NCBI GenBank assembly: GCA_001791325.1
Contig: MGEK01000026.1
Coordinates: forward strand, 1-34,777
DNA: 34,777 nt
From: Candidatus Uhrbacteria bacterium RIFCSPLOWO2_01_FULL_47_25
GTDB lineage: Bacteria > Patescibacteriota > Patescibacteriia > GWA2-46-9
Direction: 5' to 3'
The position numbers and the translations under genes are program-made. Below the pieces are notes generated by a model, which saw only the letters and a program-made list of their open reading frames with translations, did no database searches and was not told the origin of the DNA. Below are positions 1,032 to 16,386 of the stretch, in pieces (the stretch's first letter is position 1; every line of letters begins with the position of its first letter).

Positions 1032-2924
1032 ATGAGGTTTAAGATTGTATCAAGATTTAAACCAACCAGTGATCAGCCCGAAGCAATTCGGCAGATTTCA
1101 ACATGGCTTAAAGCTGGTGAGCGACACCAAACCTTGCTTGGTGTTACCGGTTCAGGAAAAACTTTTACTATGGCCAAGGTGATTGAGGAGTTGCAACGCC
1201 CCACGTTGGTAATTTCTCCAAACAAAACTCTGGCCGCCCAACTCTATAGCGAATTCAAGCAATTTTTTCCGGATAATGCCGTTCACTATTTTGTTTCATA
1301 CTATGATTACTACCAGCCCGAAGCCTATATTCCGCAAACAGATACCTACATTGCCAAGGAGGCGATGATCAATGATGAAATTGATCGGCTGCGTCACGCC
1401 GCCACCCAATCGCTTTTAACGCGTCCGGATGTTTTAATTGTGGCTTCAGTTTCTTGCATTTATGGTTTGGGTTCCCCGCTCACATATCAATCGCAAAAAA
1501 TTTCAATCCAGCAGGGTGAACAAATCTCGCGGCAAAAATTTTTGAAAGAATTGGTGGCCATGCAATACAACCGTAATGACATTGATTTTGGCCGTGGCAC
1601 ATTCCGCGCCCGCGGCGATATCGTGGAAATTCATCCAGTGACCGGCGAAGATATTATTCGTGTGGAGTGGCTGGGGGATATTTTAGAAAAAATTACTTTA
1701 CTGCCTAATATTGTGCGCAAAAAAGCGGGACAAGCTATTAAGGCAACGCAAGTACTTAAACAAATTGATATCTATCCGGCCAAACATTTTGTGACGCCCT
1801 TGCATGAAGAAGAGGACGCGCTCAAGGCTATTCGCGCCGAGCTTAAGGAGCGGCTGAACATTCTTCAAGCTGAAGGCAAGGAGCTTGAAGCGCAGCGTTT
1901 AGAACAGCGGACTAATTATGATTTGGAGCTCATTGCCACAACTGGCTACTGTAATGGTATTGAAAATTATTCGCGTCATTTTGATCGTCGCCATCCAGGC
2001 CAGCCGCCCTTTGCTTTGTTGGATTATTTTACCTACGCCGTAAAGGAGCAAAAACTAGACGGGTATTTAACATTTCTTGACGAGAGCCATATCGTCATTC
2101 CCCAGCTTCGCGGGATGTATGCCGGCGATTATTCCAGAAAACAAATGCTGGTGGATTACGGCTGGCGTCTGCCTTCGGCTTTTGACAATCGCCCTTTAAA
2201 TTTTCAAGAATTTTCGGACAGGATACAGCAGCTTTTATACGTTTCTGCCACCCCCAATGATTATGAATTAAGCTTGTCCGGTGCCAAACATGGATTTAAA
2301 GATCTTAGCGAAAGGAAAGAGAAATCGGTACGGGTGGCCCAGCAGCTAATTAGGCCAACCGGTATTCTTGATCCAGAAGTTGTGGTGCGGCCAACCGATG
2401 GTCAGCTTGACGATTTAATGGTAGAGATCAGAAAGAGGATATCTAAGAGTGAGCGTACTTTGGTAACCACCCTAACAAAGCGCTTGGCCGAAGAGTTGAC
2501 TGATTATTTAGCGGAGGCGGGAATTAAAGTACAATATTTGCATTCTGACGTAGAAACTCTGGAACGCGTTGAAATTTTGAAGAGTCTTCGCGCGGGGGTG
2601 TATGATGTGGTGGTTGGCATTAACTTATTGCGCGAAGGCTTGGACTTGCCAGAGGTTTCGCTGGTTGCAATATTAGACGCTGACAAGGAAGGATTTTTAC
2701 GCAACGAAACAACACTAATCCAAACCATGGGTCGGGCGGCGCGTCATGTTGAGGGAAAAGTTATTATGTATGCCGACACTATGACTTCGTCTATGAAACG
2801 CGCCATCGCCGAGGTGGAGCGTCGCCGCGCCATTCAACGGGCTTACAATAAAAAACATGGCATAACTCCGCAGCCTATTGAGCGGTCAGATGAAGTGATG
2901 ATCGTAGATTATATAGTGAAATAA
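1032..2924 (+). CDS. uvrB: Excinuclease ABC subunit B, lacking the C-terminal UVR motif
   Basis: [16 protein letters not shown] Walker [74 protein letters not shown]; ends soon after [10 protein letters not shown]. Confidence 0.97.
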
Positions 2925-3047
2925 ACACTTTACTTACTTGAACCTTCGTTGACAAACTAAAACAACTAACGTACTCTTGCGCGAGGCGTTCATCTTCAAC
3001 AAGCGAGCAGCCAGTAGTTTGCTAAAAAGGGAGGGGGGTAATGTCAT

Positions 3048-3185
3048 ATGTCACATAATGAGAAGGGAGCTACGTCAGTGAACTCCCCAATGTTATCGGG
3101 GTGGGCCTATCTGAGGGTACTCGGTTTAGTCTTGCTGTATGGCGGCTTCCCCCTTGCGGCATTTTGGCTTATCGCCTACTGGTAA
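3048..3185 (+). CDS. Small hydrophobic protein (45 aa), MSHNEKGATSVNSPMLSGWAYLRVLGLVLLYGGFPLAAFWLIAYW
   Basis: Hand-read ORF with a purine-rich gggagggggg upstream, a hydrophobic C-terminal half, and a hairpin just downstream. Confidence 0.45.
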   Translation: MSHNEKGATSVNSPMLSGWAYLRVLGLVLLYGGFPLAAFWLIAYW

Positions 3186-3210
3186 ACAAGAAGCACGCCA
3201 TATAGTTACG

Positions 3211-3233
3211 CCCCGGGCAGCCAATGCTCGGGG
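3211..3233 (+). terminator. Hairpin (9-bp stem CCCCGGGCA/TGCTCGGGG, 5-nt loop), possible terminator of the small ORF
   Basis: Inverted repeat read directly (one G-T pair); only a weak T-rich tail. Confidence 0.5.
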
Positions 3234-3236
3234 TTC

Positions 3237-3332
3237 TCATTTACCGATAAGTTTTTTTCGACACAGCAATTTGTGATAGCTCACCGCAAAACGATGGGCT
3301 TCGTCGCAATCAAGAAAGGTGACTACAACGCC
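3237..3332 (-). pseudogene. uvrC 3'-terminal remnant
   Basis: Minus-strand frame encodes ...DEAHRFAVSYHKLLCRKKLIGK*, matching the end of the intact uvrC (RDEAHRFAVSYHKVLRRKQLLFR*). Most nucleotide differences in the DEAHRFAVSYHK core are synonymous. Confidence 0.75.
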
Positions 3333-3476: not shown

Positions 3477-4439
3477 ATGGCAAAGTACAGTTCGTTGACA
3501 AAGGGACAAGATGAGGCGCTCGTCAATCGTTTGGGCGACGCCTTCGGCGGCGACGGTCTCGCAGCCGTGCACGCCATCTTGGCTGGTGCCAAGGTGACGA
3601 TCGAAGAGATCATCGCGACCTTCTTCGACAAGCATGGTCGGCGTATCCCGCCCCGCGGCATCAAAGCTGCGGTCTGCGACGCGAACTACAAGTTCCACCT
3701 GGTCCAGCCGGAGACCGTCGACTACGCCGCTCGGATCGAGCGCGTGATTGACGCCTTTGAGGGCAAGGTGGCATTCCCGGAAGCGGCCTGGTTTGAGGAT
3801 GCAATCGGCGGTCTCAAGATGAAGATTGAGGGCGATTCCAAGATCGTCAATGCTTTGAAGGGCATCCATCTCCCGAATGTCGTTCCGCAAATGGTCATCA
3901 CCAACCACGGCCAGACCTTGGACGAGGTGCTCCTTGTCGCTCTTGGCCGCTCCTACCAGAAGGAGTTCCCGGAGGGCCGTCCCTTCAATAACTACTGCAA
4001 GGGCGAATTGGTCAACCAGGTCAGGGTTCTCTCCGAGAGCCGTCTCGATCTCTTGGTCGAGCGGGCGAAGCAGGGACCGGTTCCGATACTCGAGTTCCCG
4101 ACCGCGACTCAGGGGTTCTCGGTCGACGCTCAGCGCGAGCAGATGGAAACGATGCTGGAGGGGTTCATCCTCAACGGTTTCAACGCCGTGCTCGCCATGA
4201 TCATGTGGCCCGATGTCTTGGCTCGGGATTTCAACACCCCAGTGATCGACCTTTCCGCCTATCAGCGGCAGTCGGCCGAGTACTCGCTCTGCCTGCGCCC
4301 GCGCGGCGCCCTCCGCTTCGGCTACAGGGCGAACCTCGCGGATGCGAACGACAACTACTCAGGAGGGGTGTCCTTCGTCGGATTGTGTCTACTTTGTAGC
4401 TGCCCAGGAGTTTTTCCAGAAGGGAAAACTCCTGGCTAA
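3477..4439 (+). CDS. Candidate DGR target (variable) protein
   Basis: RBS-like ataggagg upstream of ATG; GC-rich relative to neighbours; C-terminal ...SAEYSLCLRPRGALRFGYRANLADANDNYSGGVSFVGL resembles the 3' variable region of C-type-lectin-fold DGR targets; adjacent hairpin, Avd-like gene and DGR-class RT. Confidence 0.65.
   Translation: MAKYSSLTKGQDEALVNRLGDAFGGDGLAAVHAILAGAKVTIEEIIATFFDKHGRRIPPRGIKAAVCDANYKFHLVQPETVDYAARIERVIDAFEGKVAFPEAAWFEDAIGGLKMKIEGDSKIVNALKGIHLPNVVPQMVITNHGQTLDEVLLVALGRSYQKEFPEGRPFNNYCKGELVNQVRVLSESRLDLLVERAKQGPVPILEFPTATQGFSVDAQREQMETMLEGFILNGFNAVLAMIMWPDVLARDFNTPVIDLSAYQRQSAEYSLCLRPRGALRFGYRANLADANDNYSGGVSFVGLCLLCSCPGVFPEGKTPG
4404..4435. other. DGR-type hairpin/cruciform at the 3' end of the target gene
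   Basis: CCAGGAGTTTTTCC-AGAA-GGGAAAACTCCTGG: 14-bp stem with one T-G pair and a 4-nt loop, just downstream of the putative variable region. Confidence 0.75.
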
Positions 4440-4816: not shown

Positions 4817-5882
<1,066 letters not shown>

Positions 5883-5944
5883 GATTATATGCTCAGCAGT
5901 TGACTATGAGTCATATGGGCGCGAGATATACTTATTTATGAGGC

Positions 5945-7507
5945 TCACCGAAAAAGCAGTTGTTTTCTACGTAATACCTTATGATAACTAACCGCAAAGC
6001 GGTGGGCCTCGTCGCGCACGCGTTGAAGCAGGTGCAGCGCGCCAGAGGTACGCGGGAGTACTATTGGGTTTAACTGATTGGGCACAAATATTTCCTCAAG
6101 ACGTTTGGCGAGCGAGACAATAGGAATATCAAGTTTGAATTCTCGCCAAACTTCCATGGCCGCGCCGAGCTGCGGTCGTCCGCCGTCAACAACAACTAGG
6201 TCGGGCTTTGGCCAAACCGAGCCCTGTTTGTTTTTTGATTTTTCTTTCCCCCACCTAGTATACGCCATGGCGTATACTAGGTGGGGTGGGCGAGATGGTG
6301 GATTTTTTATTGAAATAGATGACGGTATTTCCTGATTGATGTAATGATTAAAGCGTCGCCGTAAGATTTCTTTAAGCATAGCCACGTCGTTTGCTCCGTG
6401 GACAGTTTTGATTTTGAATTTTCGGTACTGGCTTTTATCAGTCTGCCCCGCGGTGAATACGACCATTGAAGCAGTGGCGAGCGTCCCCATTATATTTGAG
6501 ACGTCATATCCCTCAATGCGGTGAGGCGGTTTTTTGAGGTCCAGCACTTTCGCGAGCTCAATAATATCACCTTCAATTTTCTCGCCAAAAGAGAGAATGT
6601 GCGACATGGCCAGCACTTTTTCTAGATTTTCTATTTTATATTCTACCCTCCTTCGCAGAAAGCCATCCGCCCGGGGCGGATAAACCCATGGATGAACCCC
6701 GTTAGAAGCCTTGCTTCTAACGGGGTGAATGCGCGAGGAGGGTACCCTGCGTAGCCTTGGCGAAGCAGGGTACGCTTCGGAGGGTTCCGCCCGACGAAAT
6801 ATGTGGAGCGGTGCCACGGGTGTAAACTCATAGGGCTCCACATTCTCGGCACGTTTTAGAGATGGCTCGTCTCTCATTCGTCGCAGCATTTTTAGCTGAC
6901 GTTTGAGGTTGTTTAAAATTCGCTGACGCTTGCCAGCAAAAAAATCTTTTATGTATTTTATGTTCTGACGGTATTCTTGAAGGCTGATTTTGCCGATACA
7001 CACTCCAGGACAAAGTCCTAGATGATAATATAGACAAGCGCGGTCGTTGTTTGGCACGCAATTGGTTCGGTAAGGAAAGAAGCGACGCAAAATTTTCAAG
7101 GTTTCTTTAACCGCGCGCGCGTCGGTAAATGGGCCGAAGTAAGTGCCGTCTTTTTCTATTTTTCTCGTTGTTAAGACGCGTGGATATTCTTCATCGGTTA
7201 TTTTGACCGAAAGATAAGTTTTGTCATCACGCAAGAGCACGTTAAAACGCGGCTGATATTTTTTGATGTAGTGAGATTCTTGCAGCAGGGCCTCTATTTC
7301 TGACGGCGTTTCTTCCCAGGTGACCGTGGCTGCTTCATCAAGAAGACGATGCTTGGCCGGCGATAGGCCATTATTCTTTACAAAGTAGCTTGATATTCGG
7401 TTTTTTAGACTGGTCGCCTTGCCAACATAGAGCATGTTGCCATTTTTATCCTTAAAGAAATACACTCCGGGGGATGTTGGAATTTTTTCTTTTTTTATCT
7501 TAACCAT
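5945..7507 (-). CDS. uvrC: Excinuclease ABC subunit C with internal palindrome-encoded insertions
   Basis: GIY-YIG N-terminus (SPGVYFFKDKNGNMLYVGKATSLKNRISSYF), CLYYHLGLCPGVC, IEGYDVSNIMGTLATASMVVF, PDLVVVDGGRPQLGAA, RDEAHRFAVSYH. Confidence 0.97.
   Translation of the reverse strand: MVKIKKEKIPTSPGVYFFKDKNGNMLYVGKATSLKNRISSYFVKNNGLSPAKHRLLDEAATVTWEETPSEIEALLQESHYIKKYQPRFNVLLRDDKTYLSVKITDEEYPRVLTTRKIEKDGTYFGPFTDARAVKETLKILRRFFPYRTNCVPNNDRACLYYHLGLCPGVCIGKISLQEYRQNIKYIKDFFAGKRQRILNNLKRQLKMLRRMRDEPSLKRAENVEPYEFTPVAPLHIFRRAEPSEAYPASPRLRRVPSSRIHPVRSKASNGVHPWVYPPRADGFLRRRVEYKIENLEKVLAMSHILSFGEKIEGDIIELAKVLDLKKPPHRIEGYDVSNIMGTLATASMVVFTAGQTDKSQYRKFKIKTVHGANDVAMLKEILRRRFNHYINQEIPSSISIKNPPSRPPHLVYAMAYTRWGKEKSKNKQGSVWPKPDLVVVDGGRPQLGAAMEVWREFKLDIPIVSLAKRLEEIFVPNQLNPIVLPRTSGALHLLQRVRDEAHRFAVSYHKVLRRKQLLFR
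6249..6286. repeat. 38-bp perfect palindrome without a loop, inside uvrC
   Basis: CCCCACCTAGTATACGCCA|TGGCGTATACTAGGTGGGG; encodes PHLVYAMAYTRWG on the uvrC strand. Confidence 0.95.
6645..6785. repeat. Nested palindromic insertion in uvrC (outer ACCCTCC/GGAGGGT; inner CCCCGTTAGAAG/CTTCTAACGGGG and TACCCTGC/GCAGGGTA)
   Basis: Direct reading; the inner 12-bp stem spans 6697-6725. Confidence 0.85.
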
Positions 7508-7596: not shown

Positions 7597-10533
7597 ATGC
7601 CGCAAGAAAAAGAATCAAAACAAGAAATTAAAAGCGCGCCATTTAGCTTTTCTAAAATTGAAGAGCAGGTGCTGGCGTTTTGGCAAAAGGAGAAAATTTT
7701 TGAACGTTCGGTTAATGAACGTTCCGACGAAAAAGAATACGTTTTTTACGACGGCCCACCTTTTGCCACAGGCCTTCCTCACATTGGACATCTTTTGGCT
7801 TCAGCTATTAAAGACATTGTACCGCGCTATCAGACCATGAAGGGCCATCGCGTGGAGCGGCGATTTGGCTGGGATTGCCACGGGCTTCCCGTGGAGACGA
7901 TGGTTGAAAAAGAATTAGGGGTTAACAGTAAAAAAGAGATTGAAAAATTGGGCATCCAAAAATTCAATGACGCTTGTCGCGCGGCGGTGCTGCGTTACGT
8001 GGCCGAGTGGCGGCGCACCATTACTCGCTTCGGCCGTTGGGTTGATTTTGACAATGATTACAAAACCATGGATCCAAAATACATGGAGTCGGTCATTTGG
8101 GTGTTTGGCGAACTATATAAAAAGAAACTCATCTACGAAGATTTTCGTTGCTCACTTTACTGCACGCGCTGCGAGACGCCGCTCTCAAACTTTGAAACAG
8201 CCATGGACAACAACTATCAGGAAGTTGAGGACCCTTCCATATATATAGTGTTTGAGGCGATGAAGAAACCCAATACTTTTTTCCTCTCTTGGACTACTAC
8301 TCCCTGGACACTTTCGGCCAATGTGGCCTTGGCCGTGAAAGAAGATGCTAAATACGTGGAGGTAGAATTAACCAAAGGTGGCAAGGTTTGGAAAGGCCGT
8401 CATATTATTCTAGCTAAGGACAGATTATCGTTTGTCTTCGCGGATCAGCCGTATCAAATTGTGAAGGAATTTAATGGGGCTGATTTTATTGGCTGGGAAT
8501 ACAAGCCAATTCAAGGTTTTATTAAGCCAGACAAAGAAGCGCATCGGGTAGTGGCCGCTGATTTTGTTTCACTTGAAGATGGCACAGGCATTGTCCATAT
8601 CGCTCCAGCTTTTGGCGAAGATGATTTTAATATATCCAAAAAAGAAAACTTGCCTATGGTGTTAACGGTTGACGATGGCGGCAAATTTTTACCGGCCATT
8701 GCCCCATGGGCGGGTCAGTATGTCAAGGCCGCTGACCAAAGCATTATTGAGGTCTTAAAAAATGAAGGCAAATTGTGGCGCGCCGAAACAATAACACACA
8801 GTTATCCTTTCTGCTGGCGCTGTGCGAGCCCTCTTATATATAAAGTGCAGACTTCATGGTATATCAAAGTAGAAGCTTTGAAGAAAAAAATGCTTGCCAC
8901 AAATGAAAAAATCCATTGGGTGCCGGAACACTTAAAGCATGGCCGGTTTCAAAAAGGCATAGAGAGCGCGCCTGATTGGGGGGTGTCCAGAAGCCGTTAT
9001 TGGGGCGTGCCCATTCCGGTGTGGCGATGTGATCGGTGTAAGAAGGAGCGGGTCGTCGGCAGTTTGGATGAGTTGGAAAAATTGTCCGGGAAAAGGCCGC
9101 ACGACCTCCATCGGCCATTGATTGATGAAGTAGCCTGGGCTTGCGCTTGCGGTGGGATATTTCAAAGAGTGCCGGAAGTTTTTGATGTGTGGTTTGAGTC
9201 TGGCTCCATGCCCTATGCTCAAGTTCATTATCCTTTTGAAAATAAGGAAAAGTTTGAAGTGACTTTTCCAGCCGATTTTATTACCGAATACATTGCCCAG
9301 ACGCGTGGCTGGTTTTACGTCATGCATGTTTTGTCTAATGCTCTGTTTGGCAAGCATAGCTTCAAGCACGTTGTGACCACGGGTACCATTCTCGCCGAAG
9401 ACGGCTCTAAGATGTCTAAGTCCAAGGGCAATGCTCCAGACGTTAATCTCATTTTAGATCGTTATGGCGCCGACGCTTTGCGCTATTATTTTTTGGCATC
9501 TTCGGTCATGCAGGCCGAATCAGTGAATTTTTCTGAATCAGAAATTGCCGAGGCGGTACGAAAAATTTTATTGCCGCTTTGGAATGTTTTTACCTTTTTT
9601 AAGTTATATGCGCCGGAAGGAAAAAAATTAAGACCAATGCGTGAGCCAAAACACGTGCTTGATAAATGGATTTTGGCGCGGCTGGAAGAAACGCGGCACG
9701 AGGTTGAAGGAGCCATGGAAAGCTATGAACTTTGGCTGACCGCCCGTCCGCTTGCCGAGTTTGTGAACGATCTTTCTACTTGGTATTTGCGGCGATCGCG
9801 CGACCGCTTTAAGAGCGACAATGAAGAAGATAAACATGAGGCACTTACTACTTTGTATTCGGTTTTAGTGACCGCTAGTAAAATTTTTGCGCCCTTCACG
9901 CCGTTTTTGGCCGAGCATTTATATCAAAACTTGAAACCTTGGAATGCCAAACCAAAAGATTCCGTTCATCTGGAGCCGTGGCCAAAAAGCCATAAAGAAT
10001 TTGTTGATGAAAAATTGCTTCAGGAGATGTCTGCGGCGCGGGAAATTATTGAGGCCGGGCACGCTCTTCGCTCCGAAGCCAAGCTCAAGGTTCGCCAGCC
10101 GCTGGCCGCCGTATGGGTGCATGGCTCTGCGGCCATTTCTAAAAACATTGAGCGATTAATTTTGGATGAACTTAATGTGAAACAGTGGACCAGCAGCAAG
10201 GCGCCCAAGGGGAAAAATATCGTTTCTTGGAAGTCGCCCGCGGGTAAGCTGGAAATTTCTTTTGACACTAATCTCACCGATGATCTTAAGCTTGAAGGCT
10301 TGCGGCGCGAACTGGTTCGTCAAATTAATGCTTTGCGCAAAAAGCAGGGGCTCACTATTCGCGACAAAGTTATTGTTCATTACAATACCGACAGCGCGCC
10401 GTTGTTAAAATTGTTGAAAAATCAAGAGGCGGCAATTGCCAAAGACATTATCGCTTCCGGTTTTGAATATGGTGAGGGGGCGCATGAATTAAAGATTGAT
10501 TTGGAAGTGATAAAAATTTCTTTAGAAAAATAA
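7597..10533 (+). CDS. ileS: Isoleucyl-tRNA synthetase
   Basis: FYDGPPFATGLPHIGHLLASAIKD (HIGH region), GWDCHGLPVE, DGSKMSKSKGN (KMSKS). Confidence 0.97.
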   Translation: MPQEKESKQEIKSAPFSFSKIEEQVLAFWQKEKIFERSVNERSDEKEYVFYDGPPFATGLPHIGHLLASAIKDIVPRYQTMKGHRVERRFGWDCHGLPVETMVEKELGVNSKKEIEKLGIQKFNDACRAAVLRYVAEWRRTITRFGRWVDFDNDYKTMDPKYMESVIWVFGELYKKKLIYEDFRCSLYCTRCETPLSNFETAMDNNYQEVEDPSIYIVFEAMKKPNTFFLSWTTTPWTLSANVALAVKEDAKYVEVELTKGGKVWKGRHIILAKDRLSFVFADQPYQIVKEFNGADFIGWEYKPIQGFIKPDKEAHRVVAADFVSLEDGTGIVHIAPAFGEDDFNISKKENLPMVLTVDDGGKFLPAIAPWAGQYVKAADQSIIEVLKNEGKLWRAETITHSYPFCWRCASPLIYKVQTSWYIKVEALKKKMLATNEKIHWVPEHLKHGRFQKGIESAPDWGVSRSRYWGVPIPVWRCDRCKKERVVGSLDELEKLSGKRPHDLHRPLIDEVAWACACGGIFQRVPEVFDVWFESGSMPYAQVHYPFENKEKFEVTFPADFITEYIAQTRGWFYVMHVLSNALFGKHSFKHVVTTGTILAEDGSKMSKSKGNAPDVNLILDRYGADALRYYFLASSVMQAESVNFSESEIAEAVRKILLPLWNVFTFFKLYAPEGKKLRPMREPKHVLDKWILARLEETRHEVEGAMESYELWLTARPLAEFVNDLSTWYLRRSRDRFKSDNEEDKHEALTTLYSVLVTASKIFAPFTPFLAEHLYQNLKPWNAKPKDSVHLEPWPKSHKEFVDEKLLQEMSAAREIIEAGHALRSEAKLKVRQPLAAVWVHGSAAISKNIERLILDELNVKQWTSSKAPKGKNIVSWKSPAGKLEISFDTNLTDDLKLEGLRRELVRQINALRKKQGLTIRDKVIVHYNTDSAPLLKLLKNQEAAIAKDIIASGFEYGEGAHELKIDLEVIKISLEK

Positions 10534-13651: not shown

Positions 13652-13723
13652 GCCCCCATAGCTCAATGGATAGAGCGTAAGCCTCCGGAGCTTGAGATAG
13701 AGGTTCAATCCCTCTTGGGGGTA
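13652..13723 (+). tRNA. tRNA-Arg(CCG)
   Basis: GCCCCCA-TA-GCTCAATGGATAGAGC-G-TAAGC-CTCCGGA-GCTTG-AGATA-AGAGGTTCAATCCCTCT-TGGGGGT-A folds as a full cloverleaf with anticodon CCG. Confidence 0.92.
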
Positions 13724-13748
13724 TTGGCGATGGCAGGCGGGGAACACA

Positions 13749-13792
13749 GGTTTCCGGAACCTAGGATCCAAGTTCGATTCTTGGCGAGGGCA
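13749..13792 (+). pseudogene. Truncated tRNA-Arg(CCG)-like 3' half
   Basis: ggtttccggaacctaggatccaagttcgattcttggcgagggca has an anticodon-loop CCG, T-arm CCAAG-TTCGATT-CTTGG and 3' acceptor cgagggca, but no matching 5' acceptor (gccctcg) or D-arm was found just upstream. Confidence 0.6.
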
Positions 13793-13884
13793 ATGGAAAG
13801 GTGCGGGGCAGGGCGAATTGGCTCTCCACTTGGCCCTTGGCATAAACGATATTAATTTTGGGGGAAGAAAATTTTTTAATCATA
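13790..13884 (+). repeat. 95-bp direct repeat, copy 1 (upstream flank of gene 13913-14518)
   Basis: gcaatggaaaggtgcggggcagggcgaattggctctccacttggcccttggcataaacgatattaattttgggggaagaaaattttttaatcata; identical to 14661-14755. Confidence 0.97.
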
Positions 13885-13912
13885 AAGTCGAAAATTATTA
13901 ACTAATAAATTT

Positions 13913-14518
13913 ATGAACAATCAAAAAGGTTTTGCAAACATAGTGTTAATTGTTTTGGTCGTCGTTTTGGCGGGTGCTTTGGGATATGTAACTTTAGTTA
14001 AGAAACCAGCTCCTTCGACAATACCCACTACTTCAGAAAAATATGCTATTTCCCTAAAAACCATACCCATTACGTTTGAGTTACCTAATGGATATGCAAT
14101 TTTCCAACGGGAAGGTTTTGAAGGGGGTTACGCAACCACAATTTCTGTCGGTAAAGAAGTGTCCAGCGGTCATTTCAATTATGCCCCTCTCGGAATGGAA
14201 TTTCTTGCTACGGCCTACGACACTCAACTTAAGCGCGAGTATTCTCCAAAGGAATATGTTGATGTTGTATTCAATGAGCAAAAAAAAGATTCTGTTTCAA
14301 ATCCTCAATACATACAGCTTTTTGGAAATAAAGCTGTTAGCTACGCAAACGCCGTTGATGGTAGCATTACAATTGTTGGGTATTTAAGAACAGATCAACT
14401 ACCCGAACTATCACATGAATATCTCGTGAGGATTTCATCTTTCACTTACGGCAGTGATGTTGGAATTGACAAAGAACCCTTCGATACGGTAGTTAATTCT
14501 TTAAGGGTCAGTAAATAA
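13913..14518 (+). CDS. Membrane-anchored/secreted hypothetical protein (cassette gene 1)
   Basis: N-terminal NNQKGFANIVLIVLVVVLAGALGYVTLV signal-anchor; no family recognised. Confidence 0.75.
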   Translation: MNNQKGFANIVLIVLVVVLAGALGYVTLVKKPAPSTIPTTSEKYAISLKTIPITFELPNGYAIFQREGFEGGYATTISVGKEVSSGHFNYAPLGMEFLATAYDTQLKREYSPKEYVDVVFNEQKKDSVSNPQYIQLFGNKAVSYANAVDGSITIVGYLRTDQLPELSHEYLVRISSFTYGSDVGIDKEPFDTVVNSLRVSK

Positions 14519-14522
14519 ATTC

Positions 14523-14590
14523 TGCCGCCAAAGAAAAACTTGAAACCCGCCTGAACGAATTCATTCGGGCAGGTTGTCAGCGGTGCGGCT
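14523..14590 (+). repeat. 68-bp direct repeat, copy 1 (downstream flank)
   Basis: tgccgccaaagaaaaacttgaaacccgcctgaacgaattcattcgggcaggttgtcagcggtgcggct; identical to 15709-15776. Confidence 0.97.
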
Positions 14591-14660
14591 CCGCCGCCTT
14601 TCCGAATTTTCGCGGGGGGATTTTTCCGGCAAAATGCGTTCGGACTAATTCAAGAATACT

Positions 14661-14755
14661 GCAATGGAAAGGTGCGGGGCAGGGCGAATTGGCTCTCCAC
14701 TTGGCCCTTGGCATAAACGATATTAATTTTGGGGGAAGAAAATTTTTTAATCATA
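14661..14755 (+). repeat. 95-bp direct repeat, copy 2 (upstream flank of cassette gene 2)
   Basis: Identical by eye to 13790-13884. Confidence 0.97.
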
Positions 14756-15702
14756 TGAATGAAAATTCTAATTTAATAACTGAATCTAATTTCTCTAATC
14801 CTGTTCCGCCAGACAAGAAACCAAAAGGTGGTTTGCTACTGGCAATTTTATTGGGACTACTCACTTTTATCGTTACTGGAGTTATCGCTTTAGTAATAGC
14901 TATACCATTTTTCTTTCTTGGCAAGGTTTCTGAAAGCTTTAATCCGATAGTAATTATTGCCGGAATTTTCGGGCTTCGAGAACTGGGCGGATTTTTCGCC
15001 GCGCAATTCATACTGATACTATTTTTTGCATTGCTTGGTGATTTTGGGACTGCAATAATTTCTTGGTTCATAAATCGTTCTAAAAAATTAGCGACTGTTA
15101 CTTTTTTCTCTGCACTCATTTTCCAAATTATTGCTGTTGCTATTGTGCTTCCCGCTACTCTAAAGAAATCACAAGAGACAATGAATGCAGGTATTGAGCG
15201 CGAAAAATCTTTTGAACAATATGCGACAATAGGTAATGTCAGTTTTGAGACACAAGAACCATTTTCAGAATCGCGGGGCATAAATGGAAAATTGGTCGAG
15301 GTGTCGTTGTTCAAAAAATTGGTCATAGTCGTTCCGATTTCTGTATCACGAACGGGAATTTATCAAGTTAATGTTCAATACAGCGATAGTGAAATTGGCA
15401 GTACTCCAATGAAAGATGTTAAACAAACTCTTAATGTTGGCGATAACACAATCAAGGTAGAATTTTTGTCTAACGAATCGCGAGAGTACGGCTATGTGTC
15501 TCCAAAATCTGTAGGAGGAACAGCTCAAATTCAATTATCTTACCTTGCCTCGCAACAAGAACTTCTTGACAGCTTGAAATCAGACAATACAACTGATCCG
15601 AAAGTGCTCCAACAATTTATGAAAGATGAAGGGCTCGACCAAGGAGTAAACTCCAACCCTACCGTCAATAAGTTTGTTGGCAGAAAAGAAGTCCAATTCT
15701 GA
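14755..15702 (+). CDS. Multi-pass membrane hypothetical protein with an extracytoplasmic C-terminal domain (cassette gene 2)
   Basis: MNENSNLITES... then hydrophobic segments; ATG at 14755 sits exactly at the end of the direct repeat. The track start at 14689 is inside the repeat and disfavoured. Confidence 0.75.
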   Translation: MNENSNLITESNFSNPVPPDKKPKGGLLLAILLGLLTFIVTGVIALVIAIPFFFLGKVSESFNPIVIIAGIFGLRELGGFFAAQFILILFFALLGDFGTAIISWFINRSKKLATVTFFSALIFQIIAVAIVLPATLKKSQETMNAGIEREKSFEQYATIGNVSFETQEPFSESRGINGKLVEVSLFKKLVIVVPISVSRTGIYQVNVQYSDSEIGSTPMKDVKQTLNVGDNTIKVEFLSNESREYGYVSPKSVGGTAQIQLSYLASQQELLDSLKSDNTTDPKVLQQFMKDEGLDQGVNSNPTVNKFVGRKEVQF

Positions 15703-15708
15703 ATTCAA

Positions 15709-15776
15709 TGCCGCCAAAGAAAAACTTGAAACCCGCCTGAACGAATTCATTCGGGCAGGTTGTCAGCGGTGCGGCT
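15709..15776 (+). repeat. 68-bp direct repeat, copy 2 (downstream flank), followed by a 24-bp insertion cacttcgacttcgctcagtacaag
   Basis: Identical by eye to 14523-14590; the flanking ccgccgcctt continues after the insertion. Confidence 0.97.
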
Positions 15777-15919
15777 CACTTCGACTTCGCTCAGTACAAG
15801 CCGCCGCCTTTTCGGACTTTTGCGAGGACTTCCCGCATGGCTGAAGATCGCGAAATATGTTGTGCTATATGGCCATACGGTACATTGACTTTTTTTTGTG
15901 ATTTTTTTAATATATAAAC

Positions 15920-16168
15920 GTGGCTAAACATATTTCCCGCAAAGTGTGTCAATATACTGCTATTTTTGAACCAGATAGAAAATCTGGTGGATTTACTGTG
16001 ACCATTCCCGCCCTGCCTGGCTGTATATCTGAAGGCGATACATTTGAAGAAGCATTTCGCAACGTTGAAGAGGCGGCCAGTTTGTATCTTGAAGTTATGC
16101 TGAAGAAAAATACAAAGGTATTTAAAGAAGAAGGAGTAGTCATCGCTCCAGTGACTGTTCGCATTTAA
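15920..16168 (+). CDS. hicB: HicB-family antitoxin
   Basis: YTAIFEPDRKSGGFTVTIPALPGCISEGDTFEEAFRNVEEAASLYLE, the HicB-like fold pattern. Confidence 0.88.
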   Translation: MAKHISRKVCQYTAIFEPDRKSGGFTVTIPALPGCISEGDTFEEAFRNVEEAASLYLEVMLKKNTKVFKEEGVVIAPVTVRI

Positions 16169-16386
16169 TGCCCAAGCTGCCAGTTTTGAAACCAAAGGAA
16201 GCAATAAAGGCCCTTGAACGGGCTGGTTTTATTTTTGTACGGCAGAATGGCAGTCATCGTATTTACACCAAAGGATCCCTGGGGGTGACCGTTCCTTATC
16301 ACAATAAGGATTTAAAACCAAAGACCTTGAAGCATATTATCAAGCATTCTGGTCTAGAGCTTGAAGAATTTATCAAATTTCTTTAG
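16168..16386 (+). CDS. hicA: HicA-family toxin
   Basis: LKPKEAIKALERAGFIFVRQNGSHRIYTKGSLGVTVPYHNKDLKPKTLKHIIKHSGL; overlaps hicB. Confidence 0.9.
   Translation: MPKLPVLKPKEAIKALERAGFIFVRQNGSHRIYTKGSLGVTVPYHNKDLKPKTLKHIIKHSGLELEEFIKFL

Follow-up and report, generated by a model that had tools for sequence, protein, structure and literature searches.

A tandem array of single-gene cassettes at the 3' end of a tRNA-Arg gene in a Candidatus Uhrbacteria genome, with probable ancestry in a large serine recombinase element

The window analyzed here, a stretch of 34,777 nucleotides from Candidatus Uhrbacteria bacterium RIFCSPLOWO2_01_FULL_47_25, carries a locus that we interpret, with a probability of roughly three in four, as two integrative cassettes in tandem, each with a single gene and neither autonomous, that descend from a large serine recombinase (LSR) element docking at tRNA genes. 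This interpretation draws on sequence comparison of the cassette anatomy, the anchoring at tRNA genes, the LSR ancestry of the ends, the parent elements, the diversity of the cargo and a +5 spacing in the att sites. All window features given below are on the forward strand.

Two copies of a repeat A (13790-13884 and 14661-14755) were identical at 95/95 positions, and two copies of a repeat B (14523-14591 and 15709-15777) at 69/69. This confirmed the proposal of an earlier, sequence-only reading that identical flanks surround two different genes; its length of 95 bp for A was correct, while B measured 69 bp instead of 68. These are the limits of exact identity within the 34.8 kb, in which the longest repeat expected by chance is ~15 bp, far shorter than A or B, and ungapped extension carried repeat A to 119 bp at 92%. 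The framed genes, both of unknown function, are cargo gene 1 (13913-14518), encoding a protein of 201 aa with an N-terminal membrane anchor or signal, and cargo gene 2 (14755-15702), encoding a membrane protein of 315 aa, its ATG beginning on the final base of the second copy of repeat A. As had been supposed, the two are unrelated, their best blastp alignment covering 16 residues (E = 1.1). Neither had a match in Pfam or NCBIfam, and a search of 286 other genomes of the class gave no homologue of cargo gene 1; a single-sequence AlphaFold model of its product was unusable (mean pLDDT of 37.6). Genes for a HicB-like antitoxin and a HicA toxin lie at 15920-16386, directly after the array.

Upstream of the array, an intact tRNA-Arg(CCG) gene (13652-13723), detected with ARAGORN, is followed by the 3' part of a second tRNA-Arg(CCG) (13742-13792), recognized by alignment to L092 and by synteny. 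Repeat A begins exactly on the last GC of this partial gene, which we consider the docking site (an attB half). The empty attB, as known for LSR elements, was found in the relative G018, where an intact, cassette-free orthologous tRNA-Arg(CCG) occupies the syntenic place (RuvA-FemAB-tRNA-Mur ligase). From the final GC of the tRNA onward, the outer part of repeat A (13790-13851) forms the left end of cassette 1, a position assigned by analogy with the complete element L152 described below, and is followed by a conserved core, the A-core (13852-13882). Downstream of cargo gene 1, repeat B (14523-14591) consists of a stretch corresponding to LSR codons ~30-40 (TGCCGCCAAAGAAAAACTTGAAA...TTGTC) and the beginning of the right end, which continues as arm C1 (14574-14631) and the putative att half-site C2 (14632-14663). 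The second copy of repeat A (14661-14755) supplies the left end and A-core of cassette 2, and the junction between the two cassettes reads C2.GC.left end (14638-14685), which resembles a rebuilt attP and may function as one. Cassette 2 ends with the second copy of B (15709-15777) and a decayed C1 arm (15801-15827), without a C2 half-site, so that the array is eroded at its outer right end.

Partial 3' pieces of tRNA genes were seen near intact tRNA genes at several array loci (window 13652-13792; L027 ~8400-8480, minus strand; L156 ~7990-8040, minus strand); in the window (Arg) and on contig C3 of the same genome (Leu), they match the isoacceptor of the intact neighbor. The intact tRNA of the window is flanked by inverted repeats (CCTGCCCGCCATGGCC / GGCGATGGCAGGCGGG). 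Replacement or duplication of tRNA genes seems to be recurrent at array loci. The Rfam gathering search of these loci returned tRNAs only.

The origin of the constant frame became apparent from relatives. In G046, the A-core precedes MKYILYTRKSTEEDDRQVLSIEAQLVELQEYAAKEKLEIV, the N-terminus of a serine recombinase, whose codons YAAKEKLEIV are the B-core. Of 58 genomes, 24 had matches to this N-terminus, for the most part within open frames of ~430-580 aa. By blastn, B equals LSR nucleotides ~86-118, the best pair being the array of G008 and the LSR of G023 (33/33 identical), and a leader segment equals nucleotides ~1334-1364; pieces from both ends of the LSR gene flank the cargo. Moreover, left ends in relatives encode, on the reverse strand, LSR C-termini that run into the tRNA (L027, E = 3e-6), and the left-end position holds the LSR terminal inverted repeat. 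Judging by its position and by these relatives, the left end in the window would also be of LSR origin; the outer 62 bp of repeat A, compared with 382 other class genomes, had no significant match beyond one of 22 bp. Read against these genes, the A-core and B are remnants of an LSR gene, namely its 5' leader and codons ~30-40, and the cargo appears to occupy the place of LSR codons 1-29.

The same frame was found elsewhere. Within the genome itself, the whole of repeat A had no further copy, and repeat B was found once more on contig C3 (97%), as a third copy, and as a fragment on contig C9. The host tRNA on C3 is tRNA-Leu(TAG), and a YdjM-like protein is among the cargos there. When 57 relatives were searched with the complete unit, other families of the class yielded matches that were short and strong, and these shared a single layout: the 3' end of a tRNA, a left end containing the A-core TTTTGGGGGAAGAAAATTTTTTAATC, one cargo gene, B-core GCCGCCAAAGAAAAACTTGAAATTGTC, C1, and C2 (GTTCGGACTAATTCAAGAATACTGCA). 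On C3 and in the relatives, A-core, B and C2 keep a constant order beside tRNA genes, with other cargo each time. The view that this is a cassette or cargo-swap system is upheld by this recurrence in the genome and in many relatives, where the repeats proved neither confined to one locus nor wrapped around homologous genes. An empty cassette, with left and right ends beside tRNA-Lys and no cargo, was observed at L161 (~3700-3940, minus strand).

With three mismatches allowed, a scan of 383 class genomes located C2 at 28 sites in 23 genomes (control pattern, 0), and B was present in 55/383 (controls, zero). C2 also occurs outside the class; searches of viral contigs, phages and plasmids gave no C2. 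Nineteen of the 28 sites had a same-strand tRNA gene within 2.5 kb upstream (background, 11%) and six were at contig edges; of the other three, one belonged to a three-cassette array located 2.9 kb from its tRNA, another to the complete L152 element, and the last adjoined a tRNA-like 3' end. Nearly the same C2 accompanies tRNAs for Arg, Leu, Tyr, Met, Lys and Ile. The junctions are precise: the T-loop TTCG starts 19 nt ahead of the junction in the tRNAs (13773-13791 in the docking tRNA), and the distance from TTCR to the junction is 24 nt in C2 (14639-14662). For LSRs, the zinc-ribbon motif lies 5 bp nearer the center in attB than in attP (PMC3783163), and the TTCR half-site has this geometry (19 vs. 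24 nt), an offset that counts as one observation because the T-loop distance is fixed in tRNAs. The assignment of the crossover dinucleotide is tentative, a few right ends reading CTG|TA. C2 is a conserved, putative att half-site of 26 bp, presumably belonging to attP. Since the same attP half is found with tRNAs of several amino acids, we suggest that the enzyme may read the near-universal T-loop TTCR.

Full elements with a complete LSR are two-part, the LSR gene lying in one set of inverted repeats (79-144 bp, 91-100% identical), with its C-terminus running into the tRNA, and the cargo module in another (94-233 bp, 82-100% identical). A complete parent is L152 (G084), docked in tRNA-Leu (3162-3248, minus strand), with a full LSR gene (1686-3200). 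The A-core and C2 of the window occur in it without mismatch (A-core, 31/31 in the cargo module and 27/27 in the LSR leader; C2, 32/32). In L152, the A-core is present at 1320 (minus strand) and, before the LSR ATG, at 1643 (plus strand); B is found in the LSR N-terminus and at 373 (minus strand); and C2 is present twice (246, minus strand; 1498, plus strand). The cargo arms of L152 are 130 bp long and 100% identical, with parts matched by C1 of the window, and its LSR arms are 118 bp long and 93% identical. The window and L152 belong to different families and share exact words of 31, 23, 19, 15 and 32 bp in the same order; a common 16-mer arose in 1/200 shuffles. The L152 LSR has Resolvase, Recombinase and Zn ribbon domains and resembles the A118 integrase, and its best NCBIfam matches (CcrB/XisF/CcrA) were far below cut-off. 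LSR genes inside long, near-perfect inverted repeats were also noted at L071-L083 and L155 as at L152, and many contigs break there, which suggests inversion or assembly trouble.

The cargos are mutually non-homologous, apart from a single weak similarity, between antisense frames in the cassettes L027 c1 and L029 c2 (64% over 53 residues). They include AIR-synthase-like, dehydroquinate-synthase-like and Bestrophin-like proteins, a serine hydrolase, a methyltransferase, an HNH protein, VTT-domain and EamA membrane proteins, and other secreted or membrane proteins. Several have a GC content of 0.56-0.60 within loci of 0.41-0.48, suggesting that these cargos may be foreign in origin. This GC-rich sub-class comprises L027 c1, L029 c1/c2, L032 and L009 c1, each with its own promoter-like and Shine-Dalgarno-like sequence by eye. 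At L163 (~5560-6490, minus strand), an open frame with the strongly repeated motif TDGxAGLVANLHxFDLATxETLLV adjoins an AroB-like cargo.

We propose the following cycle. The unit would comprise a left half-site with the A-core, the cargo gene, and B with the C1/C2 right half-site, and its circular form would carry attP as C2.GC.left end. An LSR supplied in trans by a complete relative element would join this circle to the 3' end of a tRNA gene (attB), the products being attL (tRNA.left end) and attR (C2.chromosome). A second insertion at one tRNA would place cassettes head to tail and rebuild attP between them, as at 14638-14685. The likely recombination points are the start of A at the tRNA 3' end and, between the repeats, 14592-14663. 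Exchange of cargo between constant flanks could proceed by homologous recombination through the A-core and B. A window-type cassette could itself arise from an L152-like parent through inversion of the LSR module and subsequent recombination between its two A-cores; inversion followed by such a deletion fits L152, and a similar deletion fits L031.

As the sequence-only reading had stated, no recombinase was seen in the window; its recommended search for recombinase genes elsewhere turned up two Xer-type tyrosine recombinases in the genome and no LSR (no PF07508 match in the window or the genome). An LSR is encoded instead by parents such as L152. Because the genome itself yielded no LSR, the window copies would be non-autonomous, depending on another element, or relics. 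One alternative is that an ancestral LSR inserted the cassettes, that none acts now and that the genes persist as ordinary chromosomal genes. We place this somewhat below even odds, and it is compatible with the origin proposed here. The missing LSR, the eroded right end of cassette 2 and the palindrome insertions in B agree with it, but the identity within both flank pairs is still 100% and C2 has no mutations compared with other families, so the last event is either recent or maintained.

We regard as unlikely a second alternative, in which ordinary homologous recombination turned a single LSR cassette into a tandem pair, one copy of which later had its cargo replaced via the flanks, so that the second unit needed no site-specific recombination. 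The complete identity of the flanks, the lack of an LSR in the genome and the suitability of the A-core and B as natural homology arms all speak for it, as do two identical tandem cassettes in G032, the product expected of plain duplication. However, the boundary of the units falls exactly at the tRNA/att junction GC|A and not at random, and B at tRNA-Leu on C3, beside a third cargo, carries the same 28-bp insertion as the window copies, which requires movement between loci. A single cassette lineage therefore occupies two tRNA loci with three cargos.

This insertion is the inverted repeat noted earlier in B, which is real (14546-14573) and occurs in both window copies. Lying inside otherwise conserved sequence of the LSR remnant, it was ruled out as an active recombination site. 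An integron-type array, in which a tyrosine integrase acts on attC sites, is very improbable: single-ORF cassettes between short repeats and a palindrome in B recall one, but the palindrome is an insertion, the only tyrosine recombinases of the genome are Xer-type with no integron integrase, docking is at tRNA 3' ends, and the cassette ends correspond to an LSR gene and show the att geometry of LSRs. Equally improbable, and also rejected, is the idea that A and B are mere shared expression signals (leader, terminator) copied to two genes: A does precede and B follow each gene, but B is LSR coding sequence, everything begins at tRNA 3' ends, and promoter- and terminator-like matches stayed below shuffle level, with none scored in A, where a promoter had been suggested, and the only terminator-like site lying outside B.

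Returning to LSR-derived cassettes, the routes by which very small bacterial genomes gain genes are poorly known. If our interpretation is true, these cassettes would be a compact route, at ~1 kb per gene, with tRNA docks everywhere and arrays possible, and the conserved 26-bp C2 end could be used directly to search for what would be a hidden pool of mobile accessory genes, encoding secreted and membrane proteins, transporters and enzymes. The enzymes are known; no description of one-gene, LSR-framed cassettes at many tRNAs was found in the open-access literature searched.

As in LSR integrative elements (A118/phiC31-type integrases; IMEs, prophages), the parents encode a canonical LSR, insertion occurs beside tRNA genes, and the attB/attP geometry has the 5-bp shift (PMC3783163). 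Unlike these, the cassettes are mostly ~1 kb, hold one cargo gene and no LSR, and lie head to tail in arrays; each of the two modules, LSR and cargo, has inverted repeats of 80-233 bp, and tRNAs of many amino acids are served by one attP half. SCC elements are driven by LSRs (Ccr), dock at the 3' end of one gene, form tandem arrays and include some members without a recombinase. The array resembles them in these four respects, whereas its dock is a tRNA gene and not rlmH, each cassette has one gene, remnants of a recombinase gene frame the cargo, and in place of ccr genes there is no LSR here and a parent LSR far below Ccr cut-offs. With Hin-type invertible segments, the parent elements share a recombinase gene inside inverted repeats; the enzyme here belongs to the large and not to the small serine recombinases, and inversion is a possibility suggested by the inverted repeats. 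Finally, integron gene cassettes and CALINs have in common with this system single-gene cassettes, variable cargo and arrays without a recombinase in the genome, but here the recombinase is a serine and not a tyrosine enzyme, with no IntI in the genome, the dock is a tRNA 3' end, no attI was seen and no attC is expected. We tentatively suggest, at less than even confidence, a cassette system in this group of small-genome bacteria that parallels integrons, in which an LSR reads the T-loop shared by nearly all tRNAs, so that any tRNA gene can be used for docking, and genes move singly as short circles with ends built from the recombinase's own gene.
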